Part shown: one piece after another, positions 10,135 through 22,417 of the stretch
How positions within the stretch are numbered: position 1 is the first letter of the stretch
How the letters are laid out: each line of letters starts with the position of its first letter
Source: Prevotella sp. UBA7594
GTDB lineage: Bacteria > Bacteroidota > Bacteroidia > Bacteroidales > Bacteroidaceae
Length of the DNA: 64,000 bases
Assembly (NCBI GenBank): GCA_002490315.1
Contig: DLKG01000037.1
Coordinates: forward strand, 6,181 to 70,180
Reading direction: 5' to 3'
Notes under the pieces: generated by a model
Seen by the model: only the letters and a program-made list of their open reading frames with translations
Database searches by the model: none
Told to the model about the DNA's origin: nothing
Made by a program: the position numbers and the translations under genes

Positions 10135-12216
10135 ATGAAAACATTGAACTTCATGAAAGCAAGCCACCTATGCTTCCTTCTCGCCATCTTCCTTAGCCTG
10201 CCGTGCCAAGCGCAGCAGGCTAAGGAAGAGCAACACGTCTCCAGCCAGCCAACGGAGCGGCGTCCTTGGCAGCTTCTCTTTGACCAACTGTGCGACTATG
10301 ACGACATCGAGGACAACAATGCCGAGGACATGTACGAACAGTTGTGTGAACTTGAAGCCTCTCCCGTCGACCTCAACCACGCGACACCCGACGACCTACA
10401 ACGACTCTTCTTCCTCAACGACCACCAACGCGAACAGCTGGCGGAATACGTCGACCGCTACCGTCCGCTGCGCTCCGAAGGCGAATTGTCGCTGATTGAG
10501 TCGCTCGACCCTTTGCGCCTTCAACTGCTGCGCTGCTTCACGGTAGTTGCGGAAGGGGAAGATGCGAAGACGTTTCCTTCTCTAAAGCGCATATTGAAGT
10601 ATGGCAAGCACGAACTCGTGGCAACGGCAAAGATTCCGCTCTACGAGCGTGCAGGCGACCGCAACGGCTATTTGGGCTACAAATACAAACATTGGATAAG
10701 ATACAAGTTCCAATATTCCAACAACGTGAGCCTTGGCTTCACGGGGGCGCAGGACTCCGGGGAACCATTCTTTGCCTCATGCAACAAGACGGGTTACGAC
10801 CATTACGCCTACTGGCTGCTCGTAAGGGACATGGGCAGACTGAAGACGCTCGCGCTCGGACAGTACAAAGTGAGACTCGGACTGGGTCTGGTGGTCAACT
10901 CCGGCTTCACATTCGGCAAAACAGCCTCGGCTGTGCTCTCGCAACCCAACTATGCCCTGACAGCCAACACCTCGCGCTCTGAAGCGTCGTATCTGCAAGG
11001 CGGCGCAGCGACTCTGGCGCTCAGCCGCCACCTCGACGCCACTGTTTTCCTTTCCTACCGCAAGATTGACGCTACGCTCAACGATGACGGCTCTATAAAG
11101 ACCATCCTCCGCACAGGCTACCACCGCACTCAAAGCGAGATAGCCCGGCGCCACAACGCCTCGCAGTTCGCATCGGGCGCAAACATAAGTTGGCGCGACG
11201 GCGGTTTTCATGCCGGACTGACGGCTCTGTTCACATCGTTCAGCCGACGGCTCACGCCCGACGACTCACGCCTCTACCTGCGCTACGCTCCCAATGGGAA
11301 GTCATTCGCCAACGCAAGCCTCAACTACGGATATATCTGCCATCGGCTTACGCTCAACGGCGAGACAGCCGTCAATGACGCCAAGGCGCTCGCCACGCTC
11401 AACACCGTGTCGTGGCAGGCTTCCAACACCCTGTCGCTCACTGCCATACAACGCTACTATTCCTACAAGTACTACTCGCTCTTCAGTTCCTCATTCAGCG
11501 ATGCCGGAAAGACGCAGAACGAAAGCGGCATGTACGCCGGAGCCACATGGCAACCCCTACCGCGACTTTCCTTACTCGCCTATTGCGACTATGCCTACCA
11601 TCCGTGGGCACGCTATCGTGTGTCAACATCCTCCCACTCGCTCGACAACTCCCTACAAGCCACCTACACCTTCAGCCCTTCCCTCTCACTCTCCGCACGC
11701 TATCGTCTGCGCCTCCGTCAAGAAGACTACACGCAAGGCAAACAGCAATCGCCCTCTCTTATCGACAAAACAGAGCATCGCTCACGACTCACGCTCGCCT
11801 ACTCGGGAAAGAGGCTGACGTGCAAGACGCAGGTGGACTTCGCCTACACGACGTTTCCTGCCGGACTAAGCGGCAAGACGAACAGTCTCGGATGGATGGC
11901 TACGCAGTCTGCAGGAGCACAAATAAGCCTTTTCTCAACATATGTCGCCATAGGCTATTTCCACACCGACGACTACAACTCTCGACTCTACTCCTATGAG
12001 CGCGGCACACTGTACAATTTCTCCTCCCACATGTTCTACGGAAACGGTTTGCGCGTGGCTGCCGTCATACGCGCCGACATCGGCAAGAAATTGATGGTCG
12101 TGGCGAAAGCGGCGACCACTAAATATTTCGACCGCGACCACATCTCGTCTTCCTATCAGCAAATCAACTCCTCGGCAATGACCGACATTGATGTGCAGAT
12201 AAAATGGAAATTCTGA
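10135..12216 (+). CDS. Outer-membrane protein with N-terminal helix-hairpin-helix domain
   Basis: A 693-residue exported protein. The signal peptide is clear (LCFLLAIFLSLPCQAQQ, cut after about residue 27). Residues about 70-145 hold helix-hairpin-helix motifs of the ComEA type (VDLNHATPDDLQRLFFLND and YRPLRSEGELSLIESLD). The rest, about 500 residues, is rich in alternating polar/aromatic beta strands (YKYKHWIRYKFQYSNNVSLGF and many similar) and ends DVQIKWKF, with the terminal phenylalanine expected of an outer-membrane beta-barrel. HHH motifs normally bind DNA backbone, so a fusion with a barrel is odd; the role is not known to me. It directly follows the tamB-like gene, with which it is probably cotranscribed. 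A promoter for kdsA lies just after its stop codon. Confidence 0.82.
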   Translation: MKTLNFMKASHLCFLLAIFLSLPCQAQQAKEEQHVSSQPTERRPWQLLFDQLCDYDDIEDNNAEDMYEQLCELEASPVDLNHATPDDLQRLFFLNDHQREQLAEYVDRYRPLRSEGELSLIESLDPLRLQLLRCFTVVAEGEDAKTFPSLKRILKYGKHELVATAKIPLYERAGDRNGYLGYKYKHWIRYKFQYSNNVSLGFTGAQDSGEPFFASCNKTGYDHYAYWLLVRDMGRLKTLALGQYKVRLGLGLVVNSGFTFGKTASAVLSQPNYALTANTSRSEASYLQGGAATLALSRHLDATVFLSYRKIDATLNDDGSIKTILRTGYHRTQSEIARRHNASQFASGANISWRDGGFHAGLTALFTSFSRRLTPDDSRLYLRYAPNGKSFANASLNYGYICHRLTLNGETAVNDAKALATLNTVSWQASNTLSLTAIQRYYSYKYYSLFSSSFSDAGKTQNESGMYAGATWQPLPRLSLLAYCDYAYHPWARYRVSTSSHSLDNSLQATYTFSPSLSLSARYRLRLRQEDYTQGKQQSPSLIDKTEHRSRLTLAYSGKRLTCKTQVDFAYTTFPAGLSGKTNSLGWMATQSAGAQISLFSTYVAIGYFHTDDYNSRLYSYERGTLYNFSSHMFYGNGLRVAAVIRADIGKKLMVVAKAATTKYFDRDHISSSYQQINSSAMTDIDVQIKWKF

Positions 12217-12258
12217 CACCCTAAAAATGGTTTATATTCGAAAATTCAACATGAAAGG

Positions 12259-12290
12259 CTTGGCACGACACCAATTTTTCACTAATTTTG
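12259..12290 (+). promoter_or_regulatory. Promoter of kdsA
   Basis: CTTG (12259-12262), 20 bases, then TAATTTTG (12283-12290). The expected transcription start lies about 5-8 bases downstream, after the ATG at 12292. This argues that translation of kdsA begins at the later ATG at 12340. Confidence 0.7.
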
Positions 12291-12339
12291 CATGTTAACA
12301 TTAATAAATGTCTTTACAAAATATAAAGTTCACCAACCT

Positions 12340-13098
12340 ATGCAGCCAGTTTTCATAGCCGGTCCCTGCGTGATAGAGTCACAGGAACTTCTAAATACTG
12401 TAGCCGAAGAGCTTGTCAGAATCAATAATAAATTCGGCATAAACATCATCTTCAAAGCGTCGTTCGACAAGGCCAACCGCACGTCGATAAAGTCGTTTCG
12501 CGGTCCGGGACTTGAGAAGGGTCTTGAGATGCTCGCCAATGTGAAGAGCCGCTACGGCTTGCGCCTGCTCACAGACATCCACGAGAGCTATCAGGCGGAA
12601 GCGGCTGGAGAAGTGTGCGACGTACTGCAAATCCCGGCATTCCTCTGCCGGCAGACCGACCTCCTCATAGCTGCCGCAAAGACAGGCAAGACGGTAAACA
12701 TAAAGAAGGCGCAATTTCTCAGCGGAAAGGACATGAGGTACCCCGTCGAGAAAGCCCTCGACGCTGGAGCTAAGGAAGTTTGGCTGACGGAACGCGGCAA
12801 CATCTACGGCTACAACAATCTTGTCGTAGACTTCCGCAACATCCCCGACATGCTTGAGATTACGTCTCGCGTGATAATGGACTGCACCCACAGCGTACAA
12901 CGACCAGGCGCTGGAGGAGGCAAGACGTCGGGCGACAGACGCTTCGTACCGTCGATGGCGATGGCAGCCAAGGCGTTCGGCGCTAACGGCTACTTCTTTG
13001 AGGTACACCCCGACCCCGACAATGCCTTGAGCGACGGTCCCAACATGCTCCGACTTGAAGACCTTGAAGGACTCGTAGGCAAGCTCTGCGACCTTTAA
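12340..13098 (+). CDS. kdsA: 3-deoxy-8-phosphooctulonate synthase (KDO8P synthase), metal-dependent type
   Basis: A 252-residue cytoplasmic enzyme condensing arabinose-5-phosphate with phosphoenolpyruvate to give KDO-8-phosphate for lipopolysaccharide. The protein starts MQPVFIAGPCVIES. The cysteine in GPCVIES is the metal ligand of the metal-dependent class (as in Aquifex), where E. coli has asparagine. Other matching segments are FKASFDKANRTS, FRGPGLEKG, DIHESYQAEAA, LCRQTDLL, DCTHSVQ and EVHPDPDNALSDGP. I chose ATG 12340 because the alternative ATG at 12292 falls before the predicted transcription start, and because the Aquifex enzyme begins at the equivalent position. kdsD follows after 23 bases, and it makes the arabinose-5-phosphate substrate. 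Confidence 0.95.
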   Translation: MQPVFIAGPCVIESQELLNTVAEELVRINNKFGINIIFKASFDKANRTSIKSFRGPGLEKGLEMLANVKSRYGLRLLTDIHESYQAEAAGEVCDVLQIPAFLCRQTDLLIAAAKTGKTVNIKKAQFLSGKDMRYPVEKALDAGAKEVWLTERGNIYGYNNLVVDFRNIPDMLEITSRVIMDCTHSVQRPGAGGGKTSGDRRFVPSMAMAAKAFGANGYFFEVHPDPDNALSDGPNMLRLEDLEGLVGKLCDL

Positions 13099-18841: not shown

Positions 18842-20071
18842 ATGGAAGACAGAAAAATACGCGTTGCCATAACGCATGGCGATACCAACGGTATCGGATA
18901 CGAACTCATTTTTAAAACCTTTGCCGAGCCGGAAATGCTTGAAATATGCACTCCTATCATCTACGGCTCTCCAAAAATCGCCGCCTATCACCGCAAGGCT
19001 ATCGACACCCAAGCCAACTTCAGCATCATCAACAACGCTGCCGACGCACAGGACGGCCGCGTCAATCTGCTGGCATGTTTCGACGACGAAGTGAAAGTGG
19101 AACTTGGCACTCCTACAAAGGAGTCGGGCGAGGCTGCCCTTAAGGCTCTCGACAGGGCTATGACTGACTTCCGTAGCCAACTCTTCGATGTCCTCGTAAC
19201 TTGCCCCGTTTGCCCTACGAACATGACGGACAACAATGGAGGCTACACCTACAACAACTTGAAGGAATATGCAGAGACTTGCATCGGCGACGGCGCCAAG
19301 GGACTGAAGATAATGGAGAACGAGGCGCTTCGCATTGCCCTCGCCACAAACGGACTGGCAATCAAGAATGTATCTGCAAACATCACGGAAGAGAATATTT
19401 TGGAGAAAATCGAACAACTCCAAAAGTGCTTGAAGCGCGACTACCGCCTCTCCAATCCGCGCATCGGCGTGCTGGCTCTAAACCCCAACGCTGACGGAAC
19501 GGAGGAGAAGGAAACCATCATTCCTGCCATAAAGAAAGCGGAGGAGGAAGGCATCTGTGCATACGGACCATACGCTGCCGAGGACTATTTCGGACGCAAC
19601 ATGTCGGACGCTTTCGACTGCACACTCGCAATGTACGACGACCAGGCTCTCATTCCGTTCTCCACAACGATGCAGAGCAACGGCATCTACTACATCGCGT
19701 CCCTACCACTTGTCTGCACGGCTCCTGCCCTCACGCCCGACTTCGAGAACGCCGGCCGCGGCTTAGCTGATGAAAACGCCCTGCGCCACGCCATCTATAC
19801 AGCCATCGACGTTCTGCGCAACCGCGACGAGTACGACACACCTCTCAGCAATCCGCTGCCGAAACTTTATCACGAGAAACGCGACGAAAGTGAAAAGGTA
19901 CGCTTCTCCATCCCCAAGAAGCGCGAAAGCTTCCGCGGCGACCGCAGACAACAACACGCGCCATCAACTACGTCTGACAACAACAACGCTCCTGCCACTC
20001 CCAACAAAGAGAGCAATGTAGTAGCTCCTGCTGAAAAGGAAAGCAACGCCTCACCGGCAGACAATAAATAG
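18842..20071 (+). CDS. PdxA-like protein with altered active site
   Basis: A 409-residue protein whose overall pattern is PdxA (4-hydroxythreonine-4-phosphate dehydrogenase, vitamin B6 synthesis): THGDTNGIGYELIFKTF at the N-terminus, VLALNP, GTEEKETIIPAI, GPYAAEDYFG and AIYTAIDVLRNR. The positions that bind metal and substrate in known PdxA are changed. The GHTEY segment reads NNLKEY (138-143), the TxHxP segment reads ATNGLA (168-173), LNPHAG reads LNPNAD (213-218) and YHDQG reads YDDQA (265-269). All three ligand histidines are therefore absent. A low-complexity tail of about 60 residues (RRQQHAPSTTSDNNNAPATP and on) follows the fold. The fold assignment is firm; the enzymatic assignment is doubtful. 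It lies between a DUF4837 lipoprotein and a membrane flippase-like gene, not with other B6 genes. Confidence 0.85.
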   Translation: MEDRKIRVAITHGDTNGIGYELIFKTFAEPEMLEICTPIIYGSPKIAAYHRKAIDTQANFSIINNAADAQDGRVNLLACFDDEVKVELGTPTKESGEAALKALDRAMTDFRSQLFDVLVTCPVCPTNMTDNNGGYTYNNLKEYAETCIGDGAKGLKIMENEALRIALATNGLAIKNVSANITEENILEKIEQLQKCLKRDYRLSNPRIGVLALNPNADGTEEKETIIPAIKKAEEEGICAYGPYAAEDYFGRNMSDAFDCTLAMYDDQALIPFSTTMQSNGIYYIASLPLVCTAPALTPDFENAGRGLADENALRHAIYTAIDVLRNRDEYDTPLSNPLPKLYHEKRDESEKVRFSIPKKRESFRGDRRQQHAPSTTSDNNNAPATPNKESNVVAPAEKESNASPADNK

Positions 20072-21130: not shown

Positions 21131-22417
21131 ATGGATACATCTGAACTGCAAAGAATAAAACAACGCTACAACATCGTGGGCAACTGCGATGCGCTGAATC
21201 ATGCGCTTGACGTAGCCCTTCAGGTTGCGCCAACGGATCTCAGTGTGCTCATTGTCGGCGAAAGCGGTGTGGGCAAGGAAATCATTCCTCGACTCATACA
21301 CGACAATTCACCACGCAAACGCGAGAAATACTTCGCCATCAATTGCGGCTCAATACCAGAAGGAACTATCGACAGCGAACTCTTCGGTCACGAGAAAGGG
21401 TCGTTTACGGGTGCCATTGGCGAAAGTGAAGGCTATTTCGGCACGGCCAACAAGGGAACGATTTTCCTTGACGAGGTAGGCGAGTTGCCTATGGCAACGC
21501 AGGCAAGACTCCTCAGAGTGCTCGAGACTGGGGAATACATCCGCGTCGGAGGCCAAAAGATAATGAAGACCGACGTGCGCATCGTAGCCGCCACCAATGT
21601 CAATATGCACAAGGCGATAAGTGAGGGACGCTTCCGCGAAGACCTCTACTACCGCCTCAACACCATACCCATACAAATGCCCCCTCTGCGCGACCGTGGA
21701 GAAGACATTCTGCTGCTCTTCCGCCTGTTCACAATGCAGATGGCGGAGAAGTACCGCTTGCCACGCATCACGCTCAACGACGAGGCGAAGGCCATTATGC
21801 TGAAATACAAGTGGCCCGGAAACGTGCGACAGCTGAAGAACATTACGGAACAGATGTCCGTGCTCAGCGAGAAGCGCGAAATCGACGCTGAGACACTGCG
21901 GAAGTTCATACCTCAAGACCAGGAGAGCACCGAGTTGACAACGACCTCCGTTTCCGGCTCCCACTCATACGAGAATGAGCGCGAGATTCTCTACAAAATT
22001 CTCTATGAGCTACGTGGCAACGTGAGCGAACTCCGCCACGAAATGTCCAACATCCGCAAGCAAATTGATGACAGCCGCACACTTGACGGCTTTGCCGCAT
22101 CAAGGCAAATGCCAGCCATAGGCGCACCTGGCAGCACACAATACGTGCAGACTCCTGCCGCGCTCTCAAGCCACACTCTTGATGACGCCAAACGCTACAG
22201 CCCCTATCAGGACGTGGAGGCAGAGGAAATCAACGACGCTGCGCCTGCCGCGAACGACGAAAGCGAAAGCCTCAACCTAAGCGACATAGGACGGCACGTT
22301 GTGGAGAAAGCGCTCGAACGCAACGGAGGCAACCGCAAAAAGGCAGCTCAAGAACTCGGCATATCCGACAGAACGCTCTACAGACGCATAAAGCAATATG
22401 GGCTCGACAAACAATAG
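21131..22417 (+). CDS. Sigma-54-dependent transcriptional activator lacking a receiver domain
   Basis: A 428-residue AAA+ enhancer-binding protein. The Walker A motif is GESGVGKE (43-50), the sigma-54 loop is GSFTGA (90-95), Walker B is IFLDE (111-115) and sensor residues lie in GRFREDLYYRLN (166-177). The C-terminus (about 391-428, ERNGGNRKKAAQELGISDRTLYRRIKQYG in outline) is a Fis-type helix-turn-helix. There is no receiver, GAF or PAS domain before the AAA+ core, so no obvious signal input is built in; a glutamine/alanine-rich linker of about 110 residues separates core and DNA-binding domain. A TAATTTTG box (21116-21123) lies just before the start, without a good -33 element. LptE follows and overlaps by the position of its own annotated frame. 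Targets cannot be read from the window. Confidence 0.93.
   Translation: MDTSELQRIKQRYNIVGNCDALNHALDVALQVAPTDLSVLIVGESGVGKEIIPRLIHDNSPRKREKYFAINCGSIPEGTIDSELFGHEKGSFTGAIGESEGYFGTANKGTIFLDEVGELPMATQARLLRVLETGEYIRVGGQKIMKTDVRIVAATNVNMHKAISEGRFREDLYYRLNTIPIQMPPLRDRGEDILLLFRLFTMQMAEKYRLPRITLNDEAKAIMLKYKWPGNVRQLKNITEQMSVLSEKREIDAETLRKFIPQDQESTELTTTSVSGSHSYENEREILYKILYELRGNVSELRHEMSNIRKQIDDSRTLDGFAASRQMPAIGAPGSTQYVQTPAALSSHTLDDAKRYSPYQDVEAEEINDAAPAANDESESLNLSDIGRHVVEKALERNGGNRKKAAQELGISDRTLYRRIKQYGLDKQ

Follow-up and report, generated by a model that had tools for sequence, protein, structure and literature searches.

A PdxA-fold protein that lacks the PdxA active site is retained in Prevotella and other Bacteroidales

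Why would a bacterium keep a gene for a vitamin B6 enzyme whose active site is gone? The question is raised by a protein of 409 amino acids with an ATG start, encoded at 18842..20071 (+) of the window, by which we mean the whole 64,000-nucleotide stretch of Prevotella sp. UBA7594 DNA analysed here. Its open reading frame, profile searches, alignment and structure superposition describe a PdxA-fold protein without the PdxA active site. A preliminary description of this DNA had considered the PdxA framework clear, and this view is borne out: the protein covers 286/286 positions of the PF04166 model (E 2.2e-75) and scores above the gathering threshold of that family, and its structure model, whose inspection had been proposed, superposes on PdxA crystal structures over ~319 residues at ~2 Å. 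All the motifs quoted at that stage (YNNLKEY, LATNGLA, LNPNAD, MYDDQA, TAPALTP and CPVC) are present in the translation. The nearest named relative is Leyella stercorea (85%). The protein misses the equivalog cut-offs of both TIGR00557, the pdxA model (202.9 against 290.35 bits), and NF002891, the model for D-threonate 4-phosphate dehydrogenase of the PdxA2 type (75.9 against 583 bits).

The loss of metal and substrate residues that had been read from the motifs was found again on alignment with E. coli PdxA. H166, H211 and H266 of the E. coli enzyme, which we take to be the metal ligands, correspond to G171, N216 and D266 in the window protein, while H136, T137 and R292 correspond to L140, K141 and C292. 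D267 is the sole retained position among the seven catalytic positions checked, and the protein carries none of the three metal-ligand histidines that characterise a TIGR00557-type PdxA enzyme. An alignment slip is an unlikely source of these differences because the model superposes on PdxA structures and because close relatives carry equivalent losses (L001, LKGSDDC; L002 and L003, LKGNDDC). All six lost positions lie within a relaxed catalytic stretch, residues 121-300 (19202..19741, +). Judged from these residues, and as anticipated in the preliminary description, it is very unlikely that the window protein catalyses the PdxA reaction: the fold is retained, the catalytic residues are lost, and PdxJ is absent from 60/61 genomes that encode such proteins, where the reaction would stand without its pathway.

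The decay is not confined to the window. Among 80 Prevotellaceae loci, some encode a fully canonical site and others have lost it in many different ways, and our trees gather the decayed copies of this family into a single group that emerges from within the intact ones (SH-aLRT 97 for 32 rows). This group includes Segatella copri (L039, L048 and L075). More decayed groups are found elsewhere in the Bacteroidales, one of them being Odoribacter splanchnicus, a partial protein of which is 100% identical to L140 over 71% of L140. The best tree of 120 genomes requires at least 10 changes, 5 of them imposed by branches with good support, a count made uncertain by long branches. The positions lost vary between the decayed lineages: among 61 decayed proteins, at least one metal histidine is lost in 55, all three are lost in 28 and all three are retained in 6. 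These six comprise the Odoribacter splanchnicus group (L140, L142, L143 and L149) together with L150 and L160, and for them a predicted loss of activity is less certain because the three histidines are kept while other catalytic positions are lost.

A PdxA homologue was found in 293/296 Bacteroidales genomes at E ≤ 0.001, and in 292 of them the match exceeded the cut-off; the genomes without a match were G246, G266 and G274. Among 296 genomes drawn from the phylum, PdxS was present only in G001, G507 and G551, and the last two have neither PdxA nor PdxJ. PdxA was found in 0/8 genomes of their order (G507 and G551 included, the other six without a PdxS test), so PdxA can be lost along with PdxJ. 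Such joint loss is possible and rare in Bacteroidales, with G266, in which PdxS is present and no PdxA was found, as one candidate.

What accompanies the decay is a change in the B6 pathway. The count covers 123 genomes in which PdxA is full-length and both PdxJ and PdxS were looked for, a chosen and not a random sample. The starting set comprised 50 genomes from the 80 Prevotellaceae loci and 80 of the 296 Bacteroidales genomes. The latter 80 consisted of the 29 weakest matches, 29 of the strongest, 19 of the next weakest and the 3 genomes that gave no match, with the weak G001 counted among the 50; outside the 123 fell the three genomes without PdxA and four with fragments or broken frames (G050, G185, G291 and G303). 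Where all seven positions are intact (57 genomes), PdxJ was found in 56 and PdxS in none. With two or more positions changed (61 genomes, 32 from Prevotellaceae and 29 others), PdxJ was found in 1 and PdxS in 45, and with one position changed (5 genomes) the counts were 2 and 0. No genome of the tested set has a full PdxJ together with PdxS. PdxS makes PLP directly. Neither PdxJ nor PdxS was matched in 18/123 genomes (15 with decayed PdxA and 3 with one change), and these may depend on B6 uptake. The nearest relatives of the window, G001-G003, gave no PdxJ match. Five phylogenetically independent pairs on starred branches are too few for significance (p 0.25), with PdxJ differing in the same direction in about three and showing no difference in about two; none of the independent pairs goes against the link between catalytic state and PdxJ.

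Two genomes do not fit. G039, a metagenome assembly, has an intact PdxA and no PdxJ that we could find, and G267 (L157, L241) is the only one of the 61 to combine a strongly decayed PdxA (HTAVRDC) with a full PdxJ. No PdxJ match was obtained in the related genomes G217 and G344, and G267 reflects either a wrongly binned contig or a genuine exception. In G320, whose PdxA is decayed, a PdxJ-like fragment (contig C175, L244, ~12125-12526, -; E 2.3e-13, 25% identity to full PdxJ) lies ~8 kb from an intact pdxS and resembles a remnant of the former pathway. The PdxS proteins of G001 (Leyella) and G320 are 85% identical and their PdxA proteins 41% (L243, L244), and the PdxS of G266 (L240) is 82-87% identical to both PdxS proteins; PdxS may have moved between lineages or may simply evolve slowly. 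A second PF04166 protein, scoring 351-364 bits, was found in four Prevotellaceae genomes with intact PdxA (G020, G036, G037 and G047) and is possibly a PdxA2-type paralogue.

Is the decayed protein still under selection? In Prevotellaceae, 45 decayed genes were compared with 35 intact ones, L036 having been dropped for unknown residues. Codon models gave an omega of 0.05 for residues 1-60, 0.15 for 121-300, 0.03 for 338-358 and 0.13 overall in the decayed set, against 0.05, 0.08, 0.05 and 0.08 in the intact set, in both cases over large synonymous distances. Pairwise values for the same three regions were in agreement, at 0.090, 0.321 and 0.050 in seven close decayed pairs and 0.079, 0.141 and 0.069 in six close intact pairs. 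Synonymous differences were alike across regions in the close pairs, so the constraint acts on the protein. Site rates, scaled within each set, were higher in the decayed set for 8/9 20-residue blocks of 121-300 (the exception being 221-240) and lower for all three blocks of 1-60 and for 341-360. The shift of 1-60 relative to 121-300 (Mann-Whitney p 9e-10) and that of the tail (p 3e-4) take sites as independent. The same pattern extends beyond the family: identity over 121-300 falls below that over 1-60 in 8/9 decayed groups (ratio 0.55-0.90, with one at 1.04), against ratios of 0.96-1.11 in 7 intact groups, and outside Prevotellaceae the ratio is below 1 in 7/8 decayed groups (0.65-0.90; L144-147, which lack an N-terminal bias, 1.04) and in 0/6 intact ones (1.03-1.11). 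These groups were hand-picked from the tree, three of the decayed ones being single pairs, and L141, L159, L167, L210 and L213 were left ungrouped. Catalytic residues are thus lost while purifying selection holds the rest, the combination that marks a pseudoenzyme.

The best-retained part in decayed members of several lineages is an N-terminal segment, residues 7-51 (18860..18994, +), with the pattern G13-D14-x-N16-G17-x-x-Y20-E21, G42-S43-x-K45 and Y49-x-R51. Positions were called retained when at least 80% of 28 decayed proteins from outside Prevotellaceae and 90% of 45 from Prevotellaceae shared the residue; in the N-terminal part these include G13, D14, N16, G17, Y20, E21, K25, G42, S43, K45, Y49, R51 and N75, joined by N214, D259, Y265 and Q268 in the second half. 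With L167 omitted, N16, G42 and K45 are found in 28/28 and 45/45 of these proteins. L167 itself (G123, a 1.2 Mb genome) keeps N16, Y49, R51 and N75 and has lost the other nine N-terminal positions, including K45. E. coli PdxA differs at N16, Y20, K25, S43, K45, Y49 and N75. By secondary structure, the retained N-terminal residues sit in the loop after the first strand, the second strand and the following helix, and they may form one binding surface. In Prevotellaceae, residues 338-358 (PLPKLYHEKRDESEKVRFSIP; 19853..19915, +) likewise rank with the best-conserved residues of the protein, in intact and decayed copies alike. This C-terminal motif is a local feature, since other families carry different tails or none, and it is absent or different in several decayed lineages. 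The low-complexity tail of about 60 residues noted earlier therefore holds for the variable part after about residue 360 (residues 361-409; 19922..20068, +) and not for the conserved residues 338-358.

Gene neighbourhood points to no partner in the 80 Prevotellaceae and 40 further loci. Around the Prevotellaceae loci, searched by tblastn with the window proteins within the available flanks, rlmN was found in 78, the flippase-like gene in 67, the DUF4837 gene in 53 and the sigma-54 activator plus lptE in 50. Outside Prevotellaceae, these neighbours recur in only 1/20 of the decayed loci fetched (L170, with rlmN and DUF4837), which leaves the envelope-linked or regulatory role that had been suggested from them unsupported. 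Among 20 intact loci fetched (L189-L208), the sigma-54 activator plus lptE occurred in 3/20; rlmN lies near pdxA in 13/20 of these intact loci and in 1/20 of the decayed non-Prevotellaceae ones. The other neighbours are presumably varied housekeeping genes (leucyl aminopeptidase, PNPase, LysS, murF and others). Decayed lineages share the protein, not the neighbourhood. The sigma-54 activator of the window (21131-22417, +) starts its AAA domain at residue 15, and Pfam shows neither a sensor nor a receiver domain in it, a layout like that of PspF-type activators controlled by a separate protein.

Taken together, we consider that the window protein is probably a pseudoenzyme that makes no B6 precursor and is kept for a second, non-catalytic job of Bacteroidales PdxA. 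A second function that predates the catalytic loss is the simplest account because the fold is kept, the chemistry is lost, its product is unused and purifying selection is focused outside the old active site. The ancestral protein would have performed both B6 catalysis and the second function; once a lineage gained PdxS or shifted to salvage, PdxJ would be lost, and the catalytic stretch of PdxA would then be free to drift while the other part stayed. The decayed protein would persist as a putative binding or regulatory subunit for a partner independent of B6 synthesis. We could speculate further that all Bacteroidales PdxA proteins are bifunctional, adding to B6 synthesis an old and important non-catalytic function in the N-terminal segment, and that repeated swaps of the B6 pathway exposed it through decay of the enzyme part in several lineages, among them Segatella copri and Odoribacter splanchnicus; we regard this wider idea as evenly balanced. 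Against a second function stand the conservation of N214, Y265, Q268 and D259 in the second half, the unbiased L144-147, and the exceptions G267, G266 and L167.

The second-half positions, together with the whole fold, would also suit an enzyme of another kind that draws on a different region of the cleft, much as PdxA gave rise to PdxA2 and the terephthalate dihydrodiol dehydrogenases, and the names of family matches indicate that relatives with other substrates exist. We think this unlikely. In the 45 decayed Prevotellaceae proteins, 16/18 pocket columns hold 5 to 15 different residues, and the other two, 266 and 267, hold 5 and 4, mostly the old one (29/45 and 40/45). Across the whole protein, just positions 22 and 95 have settled on a residue other than that of intact PdxA (80% level, Prevotellaceae only), and different lineages have lost different positions. 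A binding or regulatory role is favoured over a new enzyme because the constraint is strongest N-terminally and the pocket has not been re-fixed in Prevotellaceae. It is also tempting to cast the protein as a regulator or stabiliser of PdxS/PdxT or of B6 salvage, given that PdxS accompanies it in 45/61 decayed genomes and that a plant pseudoenzyme within B6 synthesis, PDX1.2, boosts PDX1. We hold this to be rather improbable, as 16/61 decayed genomes gave no PdxS match and species with an intact protein and no PdxS conserve the N-terminal segment too, so that its constraint is probably older than the pathway swap.

There is little to recommend the idea of a gene that is being lost, its constraint relaxed once PdxJ had gone and its deletion still to come, even though the catalytic stretch is clearly relaxed, G291 and G123 (1.0-1.2 Mb genomes) carry almost unrecognisable copies and G266 has none. 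Omega values of 0.13 overall and of 0.05 and 0.03 for the retained parts speak against it, as do retention across several lineages and the lack of internal stops among the listed matches in 50 Prevotellaceae genomes, although the G050 match is in two pieces. Least credible of all is a rebuilt site that still performs the PdxA reaction. The PdxA fold would allow for it, and three metal histidines are present in 6/61 decayed proteins, but all six belong to other lineages, the window protein lacks these histidines as well as H136, T137 and R292, and PdxJ is missing from all but one of the 61 genomes.

To our knowledge, no pseudoenzyme has been described in the PdxA family, and the literature matches listed included none that describes PdxA as decayed or moonlighting. 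A passage of PMC3547785 calls pdxA of Porphyromonas gingivalis essential on rich media; this fits a second function without proving it, and the gene may be essential for B6 synthesis instead. It also appears in expression tables of PMC10470040. In PMC9997740, pdxJ and pdxST serve as pathway signatures and the stem Bacteroid is absent, and the terms pdxA, pdxJ, pyridox and vitamin are all missing from the text of PMC4072883 (B. fragilis). In PMC6071262 and PMC6522883 the word pseudoenzyme appears in the reference lists only, for PDX1.2. If our preferred reading of a retained second function is true, a textbook vitamin B6 enzyme would hide a second role in one of the chief bacterial orders inhabiting the human gut and mouth, and separation-of-function mutants would already have been supplied by evolution. 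Public records name such proteins 4-hydroxythreonine-4-phosphate dehydrogenase, as for P0062, whose sequence has the changed motifs, and for Odoribacter entries; a PdxA annotation does not equal B6 synthesis by the PdxA/PdxJ route.

Compared with known systems, the window protein differs from E. coli PdxA and the PdxA enzyme in the lost metal triad and substrate residues, in its score below the cut-off, in the absence of PdxJ from its nearest relatives and in a conserved C-terminal motif that E. coli PdxA does not have. It shares its fold family with PdxA2, the D-threonate 4-phosphate dehydrogenase, and with terephthalate dihydrodiol dehydrogenase, although it scores far below the PdxA2 equivalog cut-off and shows no re-fixed pocket in Prevotellaceae. 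A further parallel is PDX1.2, a plant pseudoenzyme of the PdxS-type fold, which like the decayed PdxA is a dead but retained member of a B6-synthesis enzyme family. PDX1.2, however, has active paralogues in the same plant, whereas the decayed PdxA is the sole PF04166 protein found in 33/33 low-scoring genomes of the Prevotellaceae set.
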